IMG/VR virus record: IMGVR_UViG_3300031705_000056
Span: 1-22,805 of that record
DNA: 22,805 nt
From: a virus
Direction: 5' to 3' (one strand)
This document shows, piece by piece, positions 2,576 through 16,913 of this stretch. Under the pieces are notes generated by a model, which saw nothing but the letters and a program-made list of their open reading frames with translations, ran no database searches and was not told where the DNA came from. A program made the position numbers and the translations under genes. Within the stretch, counting starts at the first letter, position 1. The number at the start of each line of letters is the position of its first letter.

Positions 2576-2791
2576 ATGGAACTAGTATATACAGCCCCTA
2601 CCAAAGCATTCGTACTTATCAAAATAGCCCTTAAATCACTACATAAGTTTTTCTTAGCTTTAGGTGCTTCTATTGCTAAGTCACAACAACTTAGAGCCGA
2701 CTATTGGATACTGCAACATATGAGCGACAGAGACTTAAAGGACGTTGGTATTACTCGTGGCGAGATTAAAGCACGATTTGACAGTAAGTAA
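2576..2791 (+). CDS. DUF1127-type small protein (YjiS-like)
   Basis: 71 residues from the ATG at 2576, which has a GGAG Shine-Dalgarno at 2563-2566 nine bases upstream. An in-frame ATG at 2561 lacks one. The C-terminal 30 residues, RADYWILQHMSDRDLKDVGI then TRGEIKARF, match the DUF1127 pattern (L..L.DR.L.DIG.TR.EI). DUF1127 proteins are small, mostly alphaproteobacterial, and some are RNA-binding and tied to stress responses. The N-terminal half is hydrophobic/basic. In a phage this could be an acquired host gene that acts on host RNA or physiology. The motif is visible; the function is inference. Its last bases overlap the next gene. Confidence 0.7.
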   Translation: MELVYTAPTKAFVLIKIALKSLHKFFLALGASIAKSQQLRADYWILQHMSDRDLKDVGITRGEIKARFDSK

Positions 2792-3011
2792 GAAAATCCT
2801 TGCAATTATACTATTGGGGAGTATAACTACTAGTTGTAGTACTTCCTCACTAGTCCTTCCTATGTCCTGCCCTAAAGATAATAAGAAATGTCAGCGGAAC
2901 TTAGATGCACAAACTCTATCATACATTGGCCAAGATAAAGCAGCCGTACAGCTTATGTGTAGCGACCCTGATCTTCGTAATGTTATTGGCGAGGATTGCA
3001 GTAGGGAATGA
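2778..3011 (+). CDS. Small predicted lipoprotein
   Basis: From the TTG at 2778 the product is 77 residues: MTVSKKILAIILLGSITTSC, a basic start, a hydrophobic core and a lipobox-like TTS-Cys with Ser at +2, which would favour outer-membrane sorting. Mature residues include three further cysteines and the segment DAQTLSYIGQDKAAVQLMCS. No ATG exists in frame; the frame remains open to a TTG at 2745. The start overlaps the end of the DUF1127 gene and the 3' end overlaps the next gene's signal-peptide region by 107 bases. It is possibly an outer spanin-like or surface lipoprotein; I am unsure which. Confidence 0.55.
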   Translation: MTVSKKILAIILLGSITTSCSTSSLVLPMSCPKDNKKCQRNLDAQTLSYIGQDKAAVQLMCSDPDLRNVIGEDCSRE

Positions 3012-3609
3012 TGTTACAGGTGATTTTAGTAATAACTATCAAGATTCAATAGTAGATAGTAATAACGAAGAGAGTGCTACTACTAACAACTACAATGCCA
3101 CAGGCGCTGGTAGTGCTGCCCCTGTAATGAGTGCAATAGCACCTACTATTATGGGTGCAGGTGGTAACGACAGTTGCTTAATGCCTCTTACTACAGGTAT
3201 TCAGGTTACAATGTTTGGTTTTAGTACAGGTGGAGCTATACAGGATGAGGCTTGTAACAGACGTAAGAACGCTAGGCTATTAGGAGCACCACAGCAAGTG
3301 GGTGGACTAGGCCTGCAAGTTTCAGCTATTAGTATTCTCTGCCAAGACCCCGTTGTCTTTCGTAGTATGATGTTAGCAAATACACCCTGTCCCATTAATG
3401 ACATTAAGACAGGTAAGTTGCTCATGGGGAGAGCAGCAATACAGAAGTACAGGGATAATCCATCTGTTTACATAGTTGGTTATATTCTTGACATAAAGTT
3501 TTGGAATATCCTTTTAAGGGTGGGAGAGGAAGACACAGATGAAGGTATTATTGAAGACAATGCTCCTAGGCTCAGCCTTAGTGACCGTTTCCGCAGTAGC
3601 AAACGCTAA
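2905..3609 (+). CDS. Predicted secreted phage protein
   Basis: The mature part from about residue 35 (NDVTGDFSNNYQDSIVDSNN...) carries NNYNATGAGSAAPVMSAIAP, a CNRRKNARLLG segment, LQVSAISILCQDP and a terminal LSLSDRFRSSKR. I recall similar proteins upstream of the terminase genes in marine phages, without known function. Residues 17-34 (LCVATLIFVMLLARIAVG) read as a signal peptide in frame with the mature part. The start could be ATG 2905, TTG 2926 (MAKIKQPYSLCV...) or ATG 2980; 2905 has a weak CGGA upstream. Whichever is used, the signal peptide is encoded over the 3' end of the lipoprotein gene in another frame. Several cysteines suggest disulphides in the periplasm. Confidence 0.6.
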   Translation: MHKLYHTLAKIKQPYSLCVATLIFVMLLARIAVGNDVTGDFSNNYQDSIVDSNNEESATTNNYNATGAGSAAPVMSAIAPTIMGAGGNDSCLMPLTTGIQVTMFGFSTGGAIQDEACNRRKNARLLGAPQQVGGLGLQVSAISILCQDPVVFRSMMLANTPCPINDIKTGKLLMGRAAIQKYRDNPSVYIVGYILDIKFWNILLRVGEEDTDEGIIEDNAPRLSLSDRFRSSKR

Positions 3610-4363
3610 CCAAGACCATACTCTAACGGGGCAGCAGAAGATTGATCAGCTTATTGCCTCTATTGGTGATATACAATCTCGTATTATAGATAGTGGTGTT
3701 CGTACTGTAGGTGCCGTAGGTTATGCCGCTATTGGTGGTGTTGTTACTGATGGCGCGATGAATGAAGGTCTTATTACAGCAGATGAATTAGGTGCTTACC
3801 TAAATGCTAGGGCAATGGTTCTTACTCATGACTACGCTATTGCTACCACAGCAGAGCAGTTATTCATGCAGGAACATGCAGCTAATATGAATGGTCTTAA
3901 TATAGCAGTAGACAATCTTACTGTAGCAACATCTGTAATAATGTCAGCAGTAGAAGTTGCCAATATTGCAGTTGACGCAGACACTAAGCCTGAGCAAGTA
4001 GCACTACAGGGTCTGGTAGCTACTGATGAGTACAGTATTGATGCTGTAGAGGTTAATACTTACAATGAAGCTGTTACAGCAGTAGAACAGTTTGCACAGC
4101 AGGCTGGTGCTTTTATGTCTGCAGCTAATAATAATGATCTGACAGCAAGTATTGACTCTTATGCTACTCAAGGTAACTTCTTGGTTGGTAGCTACACAGC
4201 TATTACGTACACACAAAGCGTTGATGAGTTTGTAATTACATGGGCTGACTCTGGGTTTAACTCTGGTTGGCAGGGTTACTTAAGCCCTGATATGAAGAAC
4301 GCAGGTGAGCTATATGCAGCAGGTGAATACATTAATGAATATGGCGGTTATCCGACACAATGA
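3539..4363 (+). CDS. Predicted exported helical protein
   Basis: 274 residues with a textbook Sec signal peptide, MKVLLKTMLLGSALVTVSAV then ANA, likely cleaved before NQDHT. The mature protein is alanine-rich and mostly helical, with no recognised domain. A strong Shine-Dalgarno (GAGAGGAAG) fixes the start at 3539, even though this lies 71 bases inside the preceding gene. As with the previous pair, the signal peptide is therefore encoded in an overlap. It ends in an ATGA overlap with the coiled-coil membrane protein. Function unknown; it is part of an exported/membrane cassette that may act at the host envelope or on the particle. Confidence 0.65.
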   Translation: MKVLLKTMLLGSALVTVSAVANANQDHTLTGQQKIDQLIASIGDIQSRIIDSGVRTVGAVGYAAIGGVVTDGAMNEGLITADELGAYLNARAMVLTHDYAIATTAEQLFMQEHAANMNGLNIAVDNLTVATSVIMSAVEVANIAVDADTKPEQVALQGLVATDEYSIDAVEVNTYNEAVTAVEQFAQQAGAFMSAANNNDLTASIDSYATQGNFLVGSYTAITYTQSVDEFVITWADSGFNSGWQGYLSPDMKNAGELYAAGEYINEYGGYPTQ

Positions 4364-5040
4364 TGGACTTTTCATTTAACATTGCAGGGTATAACATTAA
4401 GGGTTGGATGGTGGCTGTAGCCCTTCCAATTCTTTCTTCCATTGCAGGGGGTGTTTACTGGTCTTATGATACACTGCAGCGTTTCTATGGTGTAGAAAAA
4501 GGTATTCAACTAGTCGCAGTTAAGTCTAAAGCATTTGACGCCAAAGCAGATGAATTAACTACACTTATTACTTCTGTTGAGACTAAAGCCCAGAGAGAGA
4601 TTGCTACTGTAAATGCTGAACTTAATATAGATTTACAGGAAATAAACAATACTCTTAATTCTAAGATGCTAAGTCTTAATGCACTAGCTGTTACTGAGTT
4701 ACAGTCCCTTGAAGCAAGTCTTACATCTCTTATACAGAACCTAGAAGCTAGTACAAATACTAATAATAAAGGTTTAGATGCACGTCTTACTTCTCGTATT
4801 CAAACTCTTGAGCAAGCCATACTAGATAATGATGTACGTGGTTTAAACGAGAAGCTTGCAAAGCTATCTACAAACATGACTCAGATTCTTGAACAGCAGA
4901 AAGTTCTTTTAGACTTGCGTAGTCAGGTAGATAAAGCTACAACTATTACAGATGGACTAGGCAATACACTTGATACTCTAGAAACAGAGGTCAATGACAT
5001 ATGGAAAGCATATGATGAACTAGTCGATAATCCACTATAA
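4360..5040 (+). CDS. Single-pass membrane protein with coiled coil
   Basis: 226 residues. Residues 16-34 (WMVAVALPILSSIAGGVYW) form one membrane segment near the N-terminus. The rest, about residues 45-220, is a long heptad-rich helical stretch (ELTTLITSVETKAQREIATV onward; LRSQVDKATT near the end). The shape, an N-terminal anchor plus coiled coil, is that of an inner-membrane spanin or of a holin-associated protein, but no endolysin or holin is visible nearby, so this is only a structural analogy. The start codon sits in an ATGATGG overlapping the upstream stop. A ten-base gap with AAGGAA leads into the terminase genes. Confidence 0.6.
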   Translation: MMDFSFNIAGYNIKGWMVAVALPILSSIAGGVYWSYDTLQRFYGVEKGIQLVAVKSKAFDAKADELTTLITSVETKAQREIATVNAELNIDLQEINNTLNSKMLSLNALAVTELQSLEASLTSLIQNLEASTNTNNKGLDARLTSRIQTLEQAILDNDVRGLNEKLAKLSTNMTQILEQQKVLLDLRSQVDKATTITDGLGNTLDTLETEVNDIWKAYDELVDNPL

Positions 5041-5050
5041 GGAATACACT

Positions 5051-5422
5051 ATGGCACGTAGCCTCACAGAAAACCAACAGAAGTTCCTAGAAGTATTGTT
5101 TGATGATGCAGGCGGTGATGTTGTATTAGCAAAGCGTCTTGCAGGGTATAGTGAGAAAACGCCTACACGTTTAATTGTTGAAGCCCTTAAAGATGAGATT
5201 GCAGATGCCACACGCTCCTACTTCTCTCGCTCTGCACCAAAGGCCGTTATGGCTCTTGTTGGTGCTCTAGCTGACCCTACTGAGTTAGGTATAAAAGAGA
5301 AGATGGCTGCAGCTAAGGACTTGCTTGATCGTGCTGGACTTGGTAAAGTAGAAAAAATGGACGTTACTTCTAATGGAGGTGGTATCTTTTATCTGCCACC
5401 AAAAGAAGGTAACAACGAGTAA
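5051..5422 (+). CDS. terS: Terminase small subunit
   Basis: 123 residues. The N-terminal half (TENQQKFLEVLFDDAGGDVV, then LAKRLAGYSEKTPTRLIVEA) has the helix-turn-helix layout of small terminases that recognise phage DNA for packaging. The middle (APKAVMALVGALADP...KMAAAKDLLDRAG) resembles the oligomerisation region of these proteins. The end GGGIFYLPPK is typical of the marine phage family as I recall it. A ribosome-binding site AAGGAA lies upstream. It is followed directly by a second DNA-binding-like protein and the large subunit, the expected order. The assignment rests on motif shape and context. Confidence 0.75.
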   Translation: MARSLTENQQKFLEVLFDDAGGDVVLAKRLAGYSEKTPTRLIVEALKDEIADATRSYFSRSAPKAVMALVGALADPTELGIKEKMAAAKDLLDRAGLGKVEKMDVTSNGGGIFYLPPKEGNNE

Positions 5423-5847: not shown

Positions 5848-7300
5848 AGAGAAGCATTCCGTTCCTGCTACACCCAAGGCAGACGCTTTTGACGTTGAGT
5901 TTGCACAAGAGGTTGTTTTTAAGCCAAACCCTGGCCCACAGACAGATTTTCTAGGTGCATCAGAGCGAGAGGTTCTATATGGAGGTTCAGCAGGTGGTGG
6001 TAAATCATATGCTATGCTTGCAGACCCTTTACATGGTTTAAATCATCCTAACTTTTCAGGATTACTTGTACGACATACTACAGAAGAACTAAGGGAACTT
6101 ATCCAGAAATCTCAGGAGCTATACCCTCGTGCCGTACCGGGAATCAAGTGGTCAGAGCGTAAATCACAATGGACTTCTCCTCAGGGCGGTAGGCTCTGGA
6201 TGTCTTACTTGGATAAAGATACAGATGTTACCCGTTACCAAGGGCAGGCATTTAATTGGATCGGTTTTGACGAACTTACACAATGGGCTAGCCCTTACGC
6301 TTGGGACTATATGAGAAGTCGCTTAAGATCGGCACATTCTAATGAAATTGGCCTCTACATGAGAGCCACTACAAACCCCGGAGGAAACGGTCATAGCTGG
6401 GTTAAAAAAATGTTTATTGATCCGGGCGCGTCAAGTAAAGCGTTCTGGGCAACACATGTTGAATCGGGTGAAACAATTAGGTTCCCCAAAGGACATAGTA
6501 AAGAAGGTCAGCCTCTATTTAAAAGACGCTTTATTCCTGCCTCTTTATTCGATAATCCGTACTTGGCTGAGTCGGGAGACTATGAAGCGATGCTTCTTTC
6601 TCTTCCTGAGCATCAGCGTAAGCAGTTACTGGAAGGTAATTGGGATGTTAATGAGGGTGCCGCTTTTCCAGAGTTTGATCGAAAGATACACGTTATTGAA
6701 CAATTCGACATCCCTGAGTCTTGGACAAGGTTTCGGGCTTGTGATTATGGGTATGGTTCTTACACTGGTGTTGTTTGGTTTGCTGTAAGCCCTGATGAAC
6801 AACTAATCGTATATCGTGAGATGTATAACTCTAAAGTTACTGCTTCTGATCTTGCAGATTTGATACTTGAAGCTGAAGCAAGTGATGGTGGCATACGTTA
6901 TGGAGTTCTTGATAGCTCTCTATGGCATAATCGTGGCGATACAGGCCCTTCACTGGCTGAGCAGATGATCCACAAGGGGTGCCGCTGGCGTCCATCAGAC
7001 AGGTCACGTGGCTCTCGTATTGCAGGAAAGAACGAAATACATAGGCGATTACAGGTTGATGATTTTACAGAAAAGCCACGTATTGTGTTTATGAACAACT
7101 GCACTAACATTATTGCACAACTACCTAGTATACCACTGGACAAGAGAAACCTAGAAGACGTTGATACCAACGCAGAGGATCACTTATATGACGCTCTACG
7201 TTATGGAATTATGACAAGACCACGAAGCAGCATATGGGATTTTAACCCAGAAAAACAACGCTCAGGTTTCCAAGCATCAGACCCCAGCTTCGGCTATTAA
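5720..7300 (+). CDS. terL: Terminase large subunit (ATPase-nuclease)
   Basis: 526 residues from a TTG at 5720. The Walker A motif GGSAGGGKS is at 88-96, Walker B FNWIGFDE at 178-185 (Asp184, Glu185), and the coupling motif ATTNPGG at 216-222. The RNase H-like nuclease has its acidic residues in RACDYGYG (Asp342), GVLDSS (Asp398) and AEDHLYDALRYG (Asp487/Asp491). This motor pumps DNA into the procapsid through the portal and cuts the concatemer. The first 60 residues are a basic, low-complexity tail overlapping the preceding gene; a GTG at 5816 is an alternative start. The length is normal for the family. The portal gene follows after 11 bases. Confidence 0.93.
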   Translation: MSKDVRHQLQLNASLPEGSKKRSRKSKSLKKAVSEATVSAKIEEKHSVPATPKADAFDVEFAQEVVFKPNPGPQTDFLGASEREVLYGGSAGGGKSYAMLADPLHGLNHPNFSGLLVRHTTEELRELIQKSQELYPRAVPGIKWSERKSQWTSPQGGRLWMSYLDKDTDVTRYQGQAFNWIGFDELTQWASPYAWDYMRSRLRSAHSNEIGLYMRATTNPGGNGHSWVKKMFIDPGASSKAFWATHVESGETIRFPKGHSKEGQPLFKRRFIPASLFDNPYLAESGDYEAMLLSLPEHQRKQLLEGNWDVNEGAAFPEFDRKIHVIEQFDIPESWTRFRACDYGYGSYTGVVWFAVSPDEQLIVYREMYNSKVTASDLADLILEAEASDGGIRYGVLDSSLWHNRGDTGPSLAEQMIHKGCRWRPSDRSRGSRIAGKNEIHRRLQVDDFTEKPRIVFMNNCTNIIAQLPSIPLDKRNLEDVDTNAEDHLYDALRYGIMTRPRSSIWDFNPEKQRSGFQASDPSFGY

Positions 7301-9444: not shown

Positions 9445-9631
9445 GAAGCTCGTAAACGATAAAGAACTATGGGATGCATTTACTCAAGAGTTAGAAGGGT
9501 GCATCTCACAGCAACACAAAAGTATTGAGAATATATCTGACCCTGTTGAAATGTATCGCTCTCAAGGTAAAATCTCAGCATACCGTAACTTGAAGTATTT
9601 AAGGGACAAAGTGAACATGGACAATGGCTAA
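9428..9631 (+). CDS. Hypothetical small protein between portal and virion protein
   Basis: 67 residues from GTG 9428 (MAMSLKKLVNDKELWDAFTQ...), or 65 from the ATG at 9434. It is charged, probably two or three helices, ending RNLKYLRDKVNMDNG. It overlaps the portal end (17 bases) and the next start (8 bases), so it sits in a fully coupled run. I recall similar short proteins just after marine phage portals, without a known role. Position suggests a head or connector accessory factor, but nothing in the sequence proves it. Confidence 0.6.
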   Translation: MAMSLKKLVNDKELWDAFTQELEGCISQQHKSIENISDPVEMYRSQGKISAYRNLKYLRDKVNMDNG

Positions 9632-12284
9632 TGTAGATGCACAAACTGATGCGGCTATGGCTGAATCACTTGTTAATAAGCCTGTTAGAGGTGACAGGGC
9701 TGGTGTTATAGCCAGTGGTAAAGTTAAGGATGAGAAATCACCAACCTTATTAGACGCCGCTACCTTTGTTGCTGAGATGACACCTATCATTGGTGACGTT
9801 ATGGCAGCTAAAGATGTCTGGGACGAGATACAACGGGAAGATACTAACTGGGGCTATGTTGGTGCCTTAGGTGGTGCAGCCATCATAGGTCTTATACCTG
9901 GATTAGGTGATGCAGCAGCTGCAGCTATTAAGGCTGGAGCTAAGAAGGGCCTAGGTATTGCAAAGCGTATTGAGGTTGATCCTAACGCAATGGGTTCTGG
10001 TCTTGGTAATGTACGGTTAAAGCCTGAAATAGATGATGTAGCAGAAGCTGCTGCTCTCTTAGATAGTACTGAAGCTATTTCGACATGGCGAAAAGCTAAT
10101 AAGATACCAGAGAGTAAACGCCAAGCAAATACAGAAGCCGCTAAAGCCGCTGCAGAAGATTTATATCAAGGCAATATTACTTCTAAAGAAGCTAGGCGTA
10201 TTCTTAAAGAAGAACTGCCTGTTACTTCTATATACACAGCAGAGACAATGCCCTCATTTCCTACTGTTACACAGGTAGCAGGCTCCTTAGGTAAGAAGGT
10301 ACAAAAGACAGGTGTCATAGGAGTAAAAGGTTTTGAAATCCCTGCAGGCACTCGTGTGGGTTCTAGGTTAGATATACCTGCATATAACGACTACGATACT
10401 TGGGTGGTATCTATTCACGATGGAAAGAATGATGTTAAAGGCTCTGTACTAGGTTATGGCCAAGCTGTTCGCCTTAAAAACATTAAGTTTGGTTCTGAGT
10501 CAGAAATTGCCTTGGATATTGCTAGAGGTAAAGCACGTTTAAAAGGCTCTAAAGCAGGAACAGATGTTCCAGAAAAATCTATGCCCAAAGCTACTATTGC
10601 TCGTGTATATGGTGACTATGTACCAGAAGACCCTTATGCCCTTCAGGAGCAGGCACGTAAGCTTTTGTCTGACCCTGAGTGGACACAGGTAGGTATGAAT
10701 CCTTACAGGCAGAGTAACTTCTACGATAAGAGTACAGGAATGCCTGTGTTTGAGGCTGATGAGGTCATTCAAATAGGCCCATTAGTATTAGCTAGGGGGG
10801 TAAAGAAGCCTACTAGAGCACAATTAAGAGAGCTTGCTGTTAGAACTAAAGACGGTAAGATTAGACTATTCAACAAGGGTGGAGCAGTAATGAATGAGCA
10901 AATGGACATGGCTTTCGCAATAGGCGGTTTAGCAGAAGACGTAGACCCAGTGTCAGGCAATGCTGTACCCGTAGGGTCTATGCCAGAAGAAGTACGAGAT
11001 GATATCCCTGCTCAACTGAGTGAGGGTGAGTATGTTGTACCTGCTGATGTAGTACGCTTCTTTGGTGTTAAGTTCTTCGAGGATATTCGTGCTGAAGCTA
11101 AACAAGGCTATGCTCAGATGGAATCTGATGGTCGTATTGGTGGTGAGCCTGTTGGTGGTATGGAGATGGGTGGTGATGAGTTACCCTTTGATGTATCAGA
11201 ACTAGAGATGGTTGACGATAGTGAGCCAGAGCAACCTATGATGAATAAGGGTGGTTACATCTCTGGTTATTCTGATGGAGGTTATAACCCTTACGCATCC
11301 TCTACAGGTGGTTTTGAGATACGCACTTTCCTTGGTCCAGATGGTCAAAAGGTCTTTGTACAGTTTATGAATGGTGAGCCTCTTACACCTGTTCCTGCAG
11401 GGTTTACTCCTGAAGGTGCCGCTGCAGAGCAAGTAGCTGAACAGGTTGCCACATCTGCTGCTACAGGTACTACTTCGGCGGCTGGTGTTCCAGACTCTTA
11501 TTATGCACCGGGTGGAGACAACGATCAAAATAACTTTAGGGATGAAATGGTTGTTGGTGAATCTATTGATTGGACCACAGCACAGCCTGATAAGTTTCTA
11601 GAAGTTTATGGTCAAATGACAGGTGTTGGTAACAAGTTTGCAGGTGCTGCTACTGTCTTTGGTGGATTAGGTCTTGGCATAGCTATGAAGGGCATTATGA
11701 AACTACAGGCTAATGCTATGCTTAGTGGTGTAACCGCTCAGATTGATGCTCTTAATGAATCTGGTGAAGATGCTACAAAGCTTGAAGAAGTACGCTTCAT
11801 CATGCAAGGTAAAAACGCTGATGGCTCCGAAAAAGAAGATGATGATGGCCGTAACTTTATGGAGAATATAACATCAGGTGATACCTATAAAGGCAATAGC
11901 TTTACAGAGTCTATTGCTAACATGTTTACTCCAGGAGATGGAAAACAGTACATAAATGGTATCCTTTACGATACAAAGGGGGAAACAAATAAACGAATAG
12001 AGCCGGGTATTATGAACAGTACTTCTAATGACACAGCTGCACCTGTTGTTGAAACTAATAGCAACGGCGGTGGAAACAACGGCGATAGCAACGGCAATGA
12101 CACTGTTCCCATAGTTGTACCTCCCAAAGCGACTAGGCCTGCTGTAGTACTTCCTCCTGCTTCTACATACGACAAAATGGTCGAGAATAAAAAAGCAAAA
12201 GCAAAACTAGCAGACATAACAAGTGGTAAAAACACTACTGGTAAGACTGGATTTGCTAAAGGTGGATTGATGAAGAAGAAATAA
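9624..12284 (+). CDS. Large virion-type protein with pretoxin-like hydrophobic segment
   Basis: 886 residues between portal and scaffold. Residues 50-107 (AEMTPIIGDVMAAKDVWDEI through GALGGAAIIGLIPGLGDAAA and KAGAKK) are hydrophobic/glycine-rich and resemble the membrane-associated 'P(I/V)GD...PGLGDA' segment before toxin domains of polymorphic toxins. Residues 240-390 hold a folded region ending WTQVGMNPYRQSNFYDKSTG with ADEVIQIGPLVLARG, a module I recall from large multi-domain phage proteins. Residues 460-510 (AQLSEGEYVVPADVVRFFGV, then KFFEDIRAEAKQGY) form another recurring marine-phage segment. A second Gly-rich hydrophobic stretch is at 669-690 and an Asn/Gly/Pro linker at 810-845. KGG motifs recur at 418, 542 and 879. 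It may be an ejected or internal virion protein; no catalytic residues are assigned. Confidence 0.65.
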   Translation: MANVDAQTDAAMAESLVNKPVRGDRAGVIASGKVKDEKSPTLLDAATFVAEMTPIIGDVMAAKDVWDEIQREDTNWGYVGALGGAAIIGLIPGLGDAAAAAIKAGAKKGLGIAKRIEVDPNAMGSGLGNVRLKPEIDDVAEAAALLDSTEAISTWRKANKIPESKRQANTEAAKAAAEDLYQGNITSKEARRILKEELPVTSIYTAETMPSFPTVTQVAGSLGKKVQKTGVIGVKGFEIPAGTRVGSRLDIPAYNDYDTWVVSIHDGKNDVKGSVLGYGQAVRLKNIKFGSESEIALDIARGKARLKGSKAGTDVPEKSMPKATIARVYGDYVPEDPYALQEQARKLLSDPEWTQVGMNPYRQSNFYDKSTGMPVFEADEVIQIGPLVLARGVKKPTRAQLRELAVRTKDGKIRLFNKGGAVMNEQMDMAFAIGGLAEDVDPVSGNAVPVGSMPEEVRDDIPAQLSEGEYVVPADVVRFFGVKFFEDIRAEAKQGYAQMESDGRIGGEPVGGMEMGGDELPFDVSELEMVDDSEPEQPMMNKGGYISGYSDGGYNPYASSTGGFEIRTFLGPDGQKVFVQFMNGEPLTPVPAGFTPEGAAAEQVAEQVATSAATGTTSAAGVPDSYYAPGGDNDQNNFRDEMVVGESIDWTTAQPDKFLEVYGQMTGVGNKFAGAATVFGGLGLGIAMKGIMKLQANAMLSGVTAQIDALNESGEDATKLEEVRFIMQGKNADGSEKEDDDGRNFMENITSGDTYKGNSFTESIANMFTPGDGKQYINGILYDTKGETNKRIEPGIMNSTSNDTAAPVVETNSNGGGNNGDSNGNDTVPIVVPPKATRPAVVLPPASTYDKMVENKKAKAKLADITSGKNTTGKTGFAKGGLMKKK

Positions 12285-15374: not shown

Positions 15375-16913
15375 ATGGATAACCTAAAAACGCTCGTCAC
15401 GGTTTGTTCAGGTGGCCTTGTCACCAATACAGACCCTCTAACTCAAGCTAGTGCTATGTCGGGTAGTGCTATAAGAATGATTAATTATGAGCCTGCCCTT
15501 TCGGGTGGCTATCGCCGTATTAGTGGCTACCAGAATGACTATGGTACAGTGGCAGGCTCAGGGCCTGTCTTAGGCGTTAATGTAAATGGTAACATAAATG
15601 ATGGTATTTTTGCTTGTAGAAAACCCTTTTCTGGGTATAACTATCTACATAAATGGAATGATACTTCATCAAGCTGGGATGCTGTAGTATCCGCAGGAAC
15701 ACCAGATGTGACAAACGTAAGCCGTGTACGTTTCATTAACTACAACTGGGCAACTGAGGATATGATTCTTACAGATGGAGTCAACCCTGCTGCAATATAT
15801 GATGGTACTACTTACACTGCCATAACACATGCTAATGCCCCCAATAACCCATTATACGCAGAAGAGTTTGCTTCTCATGTATTCCTAGCTGGTGATTCAA
15901 CTAATCCTCAGACCCTTCACTTTAGTGCACCTTTAAACGCTACAGACTATACCCCTGCCAATGGTGCAGGTGTTATTAACGTAGGGTACAAAGTAACAGC
16001 CATTAAGAAGTTTCGTAATGAGTTGTTTATATTTGGTGCTAATACTATTAAAAAGCTAGTTGGTAACAGCCTAGCTAACTTTGTGTTACAGGGTGTAACA
16101 TCTAACCTTGGCTGTGTTGCCCCTGACTCAGTAGTTGAGTTTGGTGGGGACCTACTCTTCTTGGGGCCAGACGGTATTCGACCTATTTCTGGTACTGACC
16201 GCATTGGTGACGTTGAGCTTGCTCCTGTATCTAAAGAAATCCAAGGTATCTTTGATAATTACTACTTGTCTGAGCAGATCACAGACGTAAGCGTTGTTGT
16301 TATACGTAGAAAGTCTCAGTTTAGGTTCTTCTTTAAGAATGACGCATCTCTATCCCTCATTGGGGCCATTCGTAAGAGCCAAGATAAAAAGAGTATCTTT
16401 GAGTACAGCCAGCTTACAGGCATTACAGCCAACTGTGTAGCAAGTGGTTTCATTGGTCAATTTGAGCACGTCATTCATGGCGATGCTGTAGGTAAGGTTC
16501 ACAGACAAGAGCGTGGTATCTCCTTTGAAGGCAACGATATCTTTAGTCTCTACCAGACGCCATACTATTACATGGAAGACCCAGAAGTACGTAAGAACGT
16601 TTACGATATTCATACGTATCTAAAGTCTGAGGGTAATACAGAAGTCTTTGTAGGTGTATACTACGACTATGACGATATAAACACAAACAACCCCACAACA
16701 TATGATTTCTCTACTGAAGGTGCTGCAGCTATATATGGCACAGCTATTTATGGTGCAGGTGACATCTATGATGGTAATCCTTCCCCTAAGACACAAACAA
16801 ATGTATCTGGTTCAGGCAAATCTGTTTCCGTTAGTTACGTTACGAACAATCAAAGAGCAAGCCATACCATACAAGCTATAACGCTTACGTATGGCATTGC
16901 AGATAGGAGATAA
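15375..16913 (+). CDS. Tail tubular B / P22 gp10-like stabilisation protein
   Basis: 512 residues, similar in size to P22 gp10 (472). It is beta-rich throughout: SGSAIRMINYEPALSGGYRR, NYNWATEDMILTDGVNPAAI, ASHVFLAGDSTNPQTLHFSA, TAIKKFRNELFIFGANTIKK, LGCVAPDSVVEFGGDLLFLG, PDGIRPISGTDRIGDVELAP. These segments are characteristic of the propeller-like hub of short tails, which keeps packaged DNA in and anchors fibres. The end of the protein (about 400-512, VFVGVYYDYDD...) looks like a separate beta domain. It starts directly after the adaptor stop with no gap. The fibre gene follows with a GTG start 4 bases after the stop. Confidence 0.8.
   Translation: MDNLKTLVTVCSGGLVTNTDPLTQASAMSGSAIRMINYEPALSGGYRRISGYQNDYGTVAGSGPVLGVNVNGNINDGIFACRKPFSGYNYLHKWNDTSSSWDAVVSAGTPDVTNVSRVRFINYNWATEDMILTDGVNPAAIYDGTTYTAITHANAPNNPLYAEEFASHVFLAGDSTNPQTLHFSAPLNATDYTPANGAGVINVGYKVTAIKKFRNELFIFGANTIKKLVGNSLANFVLQGVTSNLGCVAPDSVVEFGGDLLFLGPDGIRPISGTDRIGDVELAPVSKEIQGIFDNYYLSEQITDVSVVVIRRKSQFRFFFKNDASLSLIGAIRKSQDKKSIFEYSQLTGITANCVASGFIGQFEHVIHGDAVGKVHRQERGISFEGNDIFSLYQTPYYYMEDPEVRKNVYDIHTYLKSEGNTEVFVGVYYDYDDINTNNPTTYDFSTEGAAAIYGTAIYGAGDIYDGNPSPKTQTNVSGSGKSVSVSYVTNNQRASHTIQAITLTYGIADRR

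Follow-up and report, generated by a model that had tools for sequence, protein, structure and literature searches.

A conserved cassette of four exported proteins next to the terminase genes of marine phages: a candidate spanin-like lysis module

Introduction

What do four consecutive genes for exported proteins do directly 5' of the terminase genes of a marine phage? The question is raised by a 22.8 kb fragment (the window, i.e. the whole stretch of DNA that was analysed) from a marine phage near Roseobacter phage CRP-207 of the HMO-2011-type group, in which genes A, B, C and D follow one another on the plus strand at positions 2778-5040. A sequence-only reading had proposed that their products act at the host envelope – in lysis, as a spanin-like pair or in superinfection exclusion – or are delivered as an envelope-spanning complex. 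Based on gene content, export signals, conservation and genomic neighbourhood, we propose, with a rough probability of 0.6, that A to D constitute a late, multi-part, spanin-like module which disrupts the host outer membrane at lysis.

Phage release from Gram-negative cells ends with the disruption of the outer membrane. This function is of a known kind; for the cassette itself, the libraries and papers searched describe no function, and existing annotations of its genes read hypothetical, 'OmpA family' or 'lysozyme' (the last wrongly, see below). In a survey from 2018, no spanin was found in about 13% of the genomes, many of which are marine cyanophages (PMC6139136). HTVC023P, in which we find the module, is the type phage of a group called the most abundant pelagiphages in the ocean (PMC12753301). 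If our interpretation is true, a missing lysis step can be named for a large part of the marine phages in the form of a concrete, testable system, and spanins are not limited to one or two proteins.

Gene layout and export signals

The features of the locus are given in Table 1. A and B as well as B and C overlap in different reading frames, C and D by four bases; the gene of the large terminase subunit (E 2e-60) has its 3' end at 7300.

Table 1. Genes of the module and flanking landmark in the window.
Feature	Position	Strand	Remarks
A, small lipoprotein, 77 aa precursor, o-spanin-like	2778..3011	+	TTG start; predicted lipobox TTSC; four further Cys
B, exported protein, 234 aa	2905..3609	+	Ser/Thr/Asn-rich linker; domain with four invariant Cys; PHROG 20531
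C, exported, mostly helical protein, 274 aa	3539..4363	+	predicted signal peptide; small C-terminal beta sheet
D, N-terminal membrane anchor and periplasmic coiled coil, 226 aa, i-spanin-like	4360..5040	+	Cys-free; C-terminal NPL motif
Terminase small subunit, flanking landmark outside the module	5051..5422	+	PHROG 2538, E 2e-4

A single home-made rule set was used to call export and anchor signals in the 24 genes of the window and the 75 CDS of CRP-207; the signal-peptide and lipobox predictions for A to D combine these simple rules with conservation. A possesses a weak ribosome-binding site and the signal sequence MTVSKKILAIILLGSITTSC followed by STSS, with the lipobox cysteine at residue 20. 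B carries the hydrophobic signal peptide LCVATLIFVMLLARIAVG followed by ND, and C, which is preceded by a good Shine-Dalgarno sequence, carries MKVLLKTMLLGSALVTVSAVANA followed by NQ; in D, a transmembrane stretch at about residues 15-35 precedes the coiled coil. The rule set assigns signals to all four proteins, and clear ones in the window only to them: the other 20 genes yield two weak signal-peptide calls (2561-2791 and 15375-16913) and one weak internal hydrophobic stretch (9624-12284). In CRP-207, signal-peptide calls are confined to B, C and D, the A gene being unannotated there. The composition described by the sequence-only reading – a lipoprotein, two signal-peptide proteins and an anchored coiled coil, encoded consecutively on the same strand – is confirmed by the sequence and the rule set.

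The gene at 2561-2791, directly 5' of the module, encodes a DUF1127 protein (Pfam E 1.6e-7), a member of a small basic family that recurs in relatives.

Conservation and distribution of the cassette

The region of A to D is a conserved cassette. Homologs of B are present in 11 annotated phages, i.e. CRP-207, CRP-810, six pelagiphages (including the myovirus Mosig), the T7-like phage S28C10 and two metagenomic phages. The module is carried by roseophages, by podo- and myovirus pelagiphages and by many metagenomic contigs. According to scans of metagenomic viral contigs, the A-D arrangement is kept in at least hundreds of phage loci. Among the matches listed, a D-type gene occurs in 166 of the 171 B loci with at least 2.5 kb of sequence downstream of B; the remaining five are alphaproteobacterial chromosomal homologues.

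Not all members are distributed equally. A was found in at least 82 loci, which belong without exception to the roseophage type or to relatives of it, and its lipobox and four further cysteines are conserved in the alignment; the pelagiphage versions consist of B-C-D with no recognisable A. C varies by group: it is helical in the roseophage type and longer, with an acidic region, in the pelagiphage type, where binding-like beta domains are found on it in some cases.

Overlapping small lysis genes are often left unannotated. The A gene of CRP-207 (L002, about 1728-1940) is present but missing from the annotation. One metagenomic locus (L234:9318-10796) contains three extra exported genes between C and D; two of them look pilin- and chaperone-like by eye, and a Pfam search of these fimbria-like genes gave no match.

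Features of the four proteins

A and B are linked by their cysteines. Four non-lipid cysteines are present in 66 of 67 A proteins scored among the matches listed, and a profile comparison aligns the cysteine motif of A with the conserved domain of B over 37 columns (probability 95%, E 1.8e-8); the B profile also detects A in CRP-810. The common motif probably arose by duplication. The four cysteines of the B domain are invariant, as is expected in an oxidising compartment. B belongs to PHROG 20531 (phrog_20531; E 4.5e-8 for the window protein, 2.8e-18 for HTVC023P gp45), a family that has itself neither function nor context. In the AlphaFold model of B, the domain at residues 85-205 is predicted at good confidence, and the comparison with the PDB gave no fold match at E <= 0.001.

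Long Asn/Thr-rich tracts of up to several hundred residues are observed in the B homologues of several metagenomic loci (L065-L090, L240, L242), and a hydrophobic C-terminal tail in 12 of 216 B proteins among the matches listed. Exported B-domain proteins are furthermore encoded on alphaproteobacterial contigs (L249, L238, L245, L248, L250, L251), several of them from Hyphomonadaceae and one a complete chromosome; here the cysteine domain lies behind long Asn- or Gly-rich repeats, and D is absent nearby. Reading B as a host gene on the basis of these homologues was considered and dropped, as it yielded no function.

C of the roseophage type is modelled by AlphaFold with a mean pLDDT of 85. Comparison with the PDB gave no confident match, the best being to generic long helices (SH3BP5, E 0.1), and comparison with BFVD gave three matches at E <= 0.001, all of them unnamed or uncharacterized phage proteins. 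D ends in the motif NPL or NPM in 170 of 182 cases, as against 11 of 3174 other ORFs, and is free of cysteine in 178 of 182 (both among the matches listed). Most D homologues possess an N-terminal hydrophobic stretch, and the mean charge is more positive N-terminally of it; the rule set finds no lipobox in D.

For A, C and D, PHROGs and Pfam gave no convincing match to any named family; the closest approach for D is a PHROG Rz-like match at E 0.4. The earlier statement that no system of such composition has been described therefore stands for the databases searched, where B matches only the function-unknown phrog_20531.

In public records, the D homologues CRP-207 gp73 (L002:3292-3873) and CRP-810 gp51 (L003:9375-9797) are called lysozyme. 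We examined D as an endolysin and rejected the idea: Pfam and PHROG searches reveal no muralytic domain in CRP-207 gp73, CRP-810 gp51 or the D of the window. Judged by domain content, the published label is wrong.

Linkage to holin and endolysin genes

The neighbourhood of the module was counted in 82 loci that remained from the matches listed after greedy dereplication at 80% identity. Within three genes of the module, 41 of 443 gene positions belong to six holin and endolysin families; at larger distances, the figure is 12 of 777 (odds ratio 6.5, p 5e-10). Some of the holin families, namely hol25, hol26 and EF-hand 2TM, were assigned by topology only. For the four families named in Pfam or PHROGs (GH24, GH19, M15, 3TM holin), the counts are 23 of 443 and 9 of 777 (p 4e-5); because positions were taken as independent and families were chosen from the neighbourhood list, both p values are indicative only.

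Several gene orders illustrate this linkage. A GH19 endolysin, a putative holin and a transmembrane coil precede A-B-C-D in two loci (L021, L031); GH24 and a 3TM holin precede B-C-D in L187; and in L037, L039 and L050, D is followed by an EF-hand 2TM protein, a holin and GH19. In S28C10, which is T7-like, the tail-fibre genes are followed by a putative holin, then by B-C-D and finally by the terminase, a position which we take to be the slot of genes 17.5-18.7 in T7. The linkage is common, not universal: the window fragment contains no recognised holin or endolysin, in CRP-810 holin and endolysin lie some 23 kb from the module, and in HTVC115P, HTVC202P and Baldr both are located elsewhere in the genome.

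A small protein with two transmembrane segments and an EF-hand-like start (CRP-207 gp72, CRP-1 gp56, CRP-9 gp72, CRP-345 gp69, CRP-810 gp33) recurs in lysis cassettes both with and without the module. It is a candidate for a holin or lysis regulator that belongs to no family.

Replacement by unimolecular spanins in relatives

The strongest evidence for a role in lysis is the replacement of the module by unimolecular-spanin cassettes in close, HMO-2011-type relatives that lack B. Immediately 5' of the small terminase gene lie, in this order, EF-hand 2TM, endolysin and unimolecular spanin (gp54) in CRP-1, and EF-hand 2TM, unimolecular spanin and endolysin in CRP-345; both cassettes sit at the site of A-B-C-D in the window. 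CRP-1 gp54 combines a lipobox with a transmembrane segment at the C-terminus, and its homologues are annotated as spanin in CRP-345 (gp68) and in cobavirus ICBM1. In CRP-9, EF-hand 2TM, endolysin and unimolecular spanin directly follow the gene family that precedes the module in CRP-207, where this family is followed by A-B-C-D and the EF-hand 2TM gene. Hence, two genomic sites are occupied either by the module or by a unimolecular-spanin cassette, and the EF-hand 2TM gene is a neighbour of both. Furthermore, B and the unimolecular spanin co-occur in none of the 31 genomes searched.

Neither B nor the unimolecular spanin was found in CRP-2, CRP-603, HMO-2011 and CRP-212. In HMO-2011, the small terminase gene is immediately preceded by a GH24 lysozyme; at the site of the CRP-207 module, CRP-2 and CRP-603 possess a small TM-plus-coil gene. 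No match to Rz (PF03245) above cut-off was obtained in 11 module-bearing phages.

The unimolecular spanins, to which T1 gp11 and the ICBM1 spanin also belong, presumably perform the same task as the module. They differ from it in architecture: lipobox and C-terminal transmembrane segment are united in a single protein, as opposed to the four separate ones of the module, and in A, which carries the lipobox, the rule set detects no second hydrophobic segment.

A proposed spanin-like envelope module

The topologies of A to D are suited to span both membranes, and we favour a bridging function. According to this model, A, exported and lipidated, would have its anchor in the outer membrane, D would have its own in the inner membrane, the coiled coil lying in the periplasm, and B and C would be soluble periplasmic partners that link the two. 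B carries the cysteine motif of A, and the conserved NPL end of D may serve as a docking site. Once holin and endolysin have cleared the peptidoglycan barrier, the assembled bridge would disrupt or fuse the outer membrane and release the virions. We infer that the four proteins form a complex and disrupt the membrane, and likewise which proteins are partners and what B and C contribute. A stricter version, a true three- or four-part spanin that is widespread among dominant marine phages, with B and C as obligatory links between lipoprotein and coiled coil, is tentative and less likely than not. The same reserve applies to its evolutionary corollary, namely that the lipoprotein gave rise to, or came from, the cysteine motif of the periplasmic part.

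We also compared the module with two-component spanins such as lambda Rz/Rz1 and T4 PseT.3/PseT.2. Common to both are a cysteine-bearing outer-membrane lipoprotein (A by rule-based prediction; missing in the pelagiphage versions that lack A), an N-anchored, type II inner-membrane protein with the coiled coil usual for i-spanins (D), overlapping genes and linkage to holin and endolysin genes. The cysteine pattern agrees as well: at least one partner has periplasmic cysteines in 507 of 528 surveyed cases, and a cysteine-free i-spanin with a cysteine-bearing lipoprotein is the commonest kind of pattern (PMC6139136), as in D (none) and A (four). The differences concern gene arrangement and homology. 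In the 2018 survey, genes of i- and o-spanins are embedded, overlapping or adjacent, with distances of up to about 1 kb (PMC6139136), whereas A ends at 3011 and D starts at 4360, a gap of about 1.35 kb which is wider than in any surveyed pair and is occupied by two genes, the conserved B and C. Moreover, a domain is common to A and B, and the searches revealed no homology to known spanins (PF03245, PHROG Rz-like). For these two reasons – arrangement and homology – we do not class the module as a two-component spanin.

Alternative explanations

The gap between A and D is one of the points that count against the bridging model, as are the pelagiphage versions without a recognisable A and the phages whose holin and endolysin lie away from the module; another is that a pure lysis role explains neither the long Asn/Thr tracts of B nor its bacterial chromosomal homologues. 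A further one is a second small TM-plus-coil protein, XhlA-like, whose gene lies directly upstream of A in L018, L020, L021, L031, L140 and L145 and which could be the real partner of A. A and this neighbour would then form an ordinary spanin, and B-C-D a separate periplasmic accessory, e.g. for endolysin regulation or cell-wall handling, as might be expected from pelagiphages that carry B-C-D without A. However, no XhlA-like gene is found beside A in the window, in CRP-207 or in most loci of that type, and the common A/B motif ties A to B-C-D, so that we give this division of labour little credence.

It is likewise improbable that envelope-located A to D mask receptors or exclude superinfecting phages by blocking their adsorption or DNA entry late in infection. 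Superinfecting phages are blocked by Llp, a small lipoprotein of phage T5, and such a role would be compatible with A as a small cysteine-containing outer-membrane lipoprotein, with variable linkers in B, with the binding-like domains on some pelagiphage C proteins and with the position of the module after tail-fibre genes in CRP-810 and S28C10. Yet lysis genes are enriched nearby, the site alternates with spanin cassettes, and masking could do without an inner-membrane coiled coil whose C-terminus is strictly conserved. Of the proposed host-envelope functions, the lysis and spanin-like branch thus gains support from the neighbouring holins and endolysins and from the unimolecular spanin at the same sites, whereas superinfection exclusion gains no positive support.

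Functions as surface fibre or virion component are less likely than these two alternatives. An extracellular appendage or surface display, similar in spirit to pelagiphage curli (type VIII secretion), is quite improbable, even though long Asn/Thr-rich repeats are frequent in B, the exported Asn/Ser/Thr-rich proteins occur in the same phage groups, and curli genes are possible in HTVC023P-type phages (PMC9599517). The curli cluster was found in nine genomes and differs in gene content (PMC9599517); B-C-D occurs almost always without it, in a different operon and with a much wider distribution. Curli fibres proper were rejected, as neither A-D nor the pelagiphage B, C and D have a Pfam match to CsgG, CsgF or curlin. 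That A to D are virion or entry proteins with misleading N-termini is hardly credible: the module does sit among late structural genes, but lipobox and signal peptides are conserved in all types, and no phage structural family was matched. Delivery with the virion is unlikely for proteins with predicted signal peptides; a literature search for proteomic data on virions of phages that bear the module yielded no usable result.

A non-coding region of the window

The near-palindrome AGTAGCTAC has seven matches in the window (both strands), as compared with a chance expectation of 0.5 in the whole window, and six of the seven lie within the non-coding positions 684-950. This stretch is possibly a regulatory or origin region.
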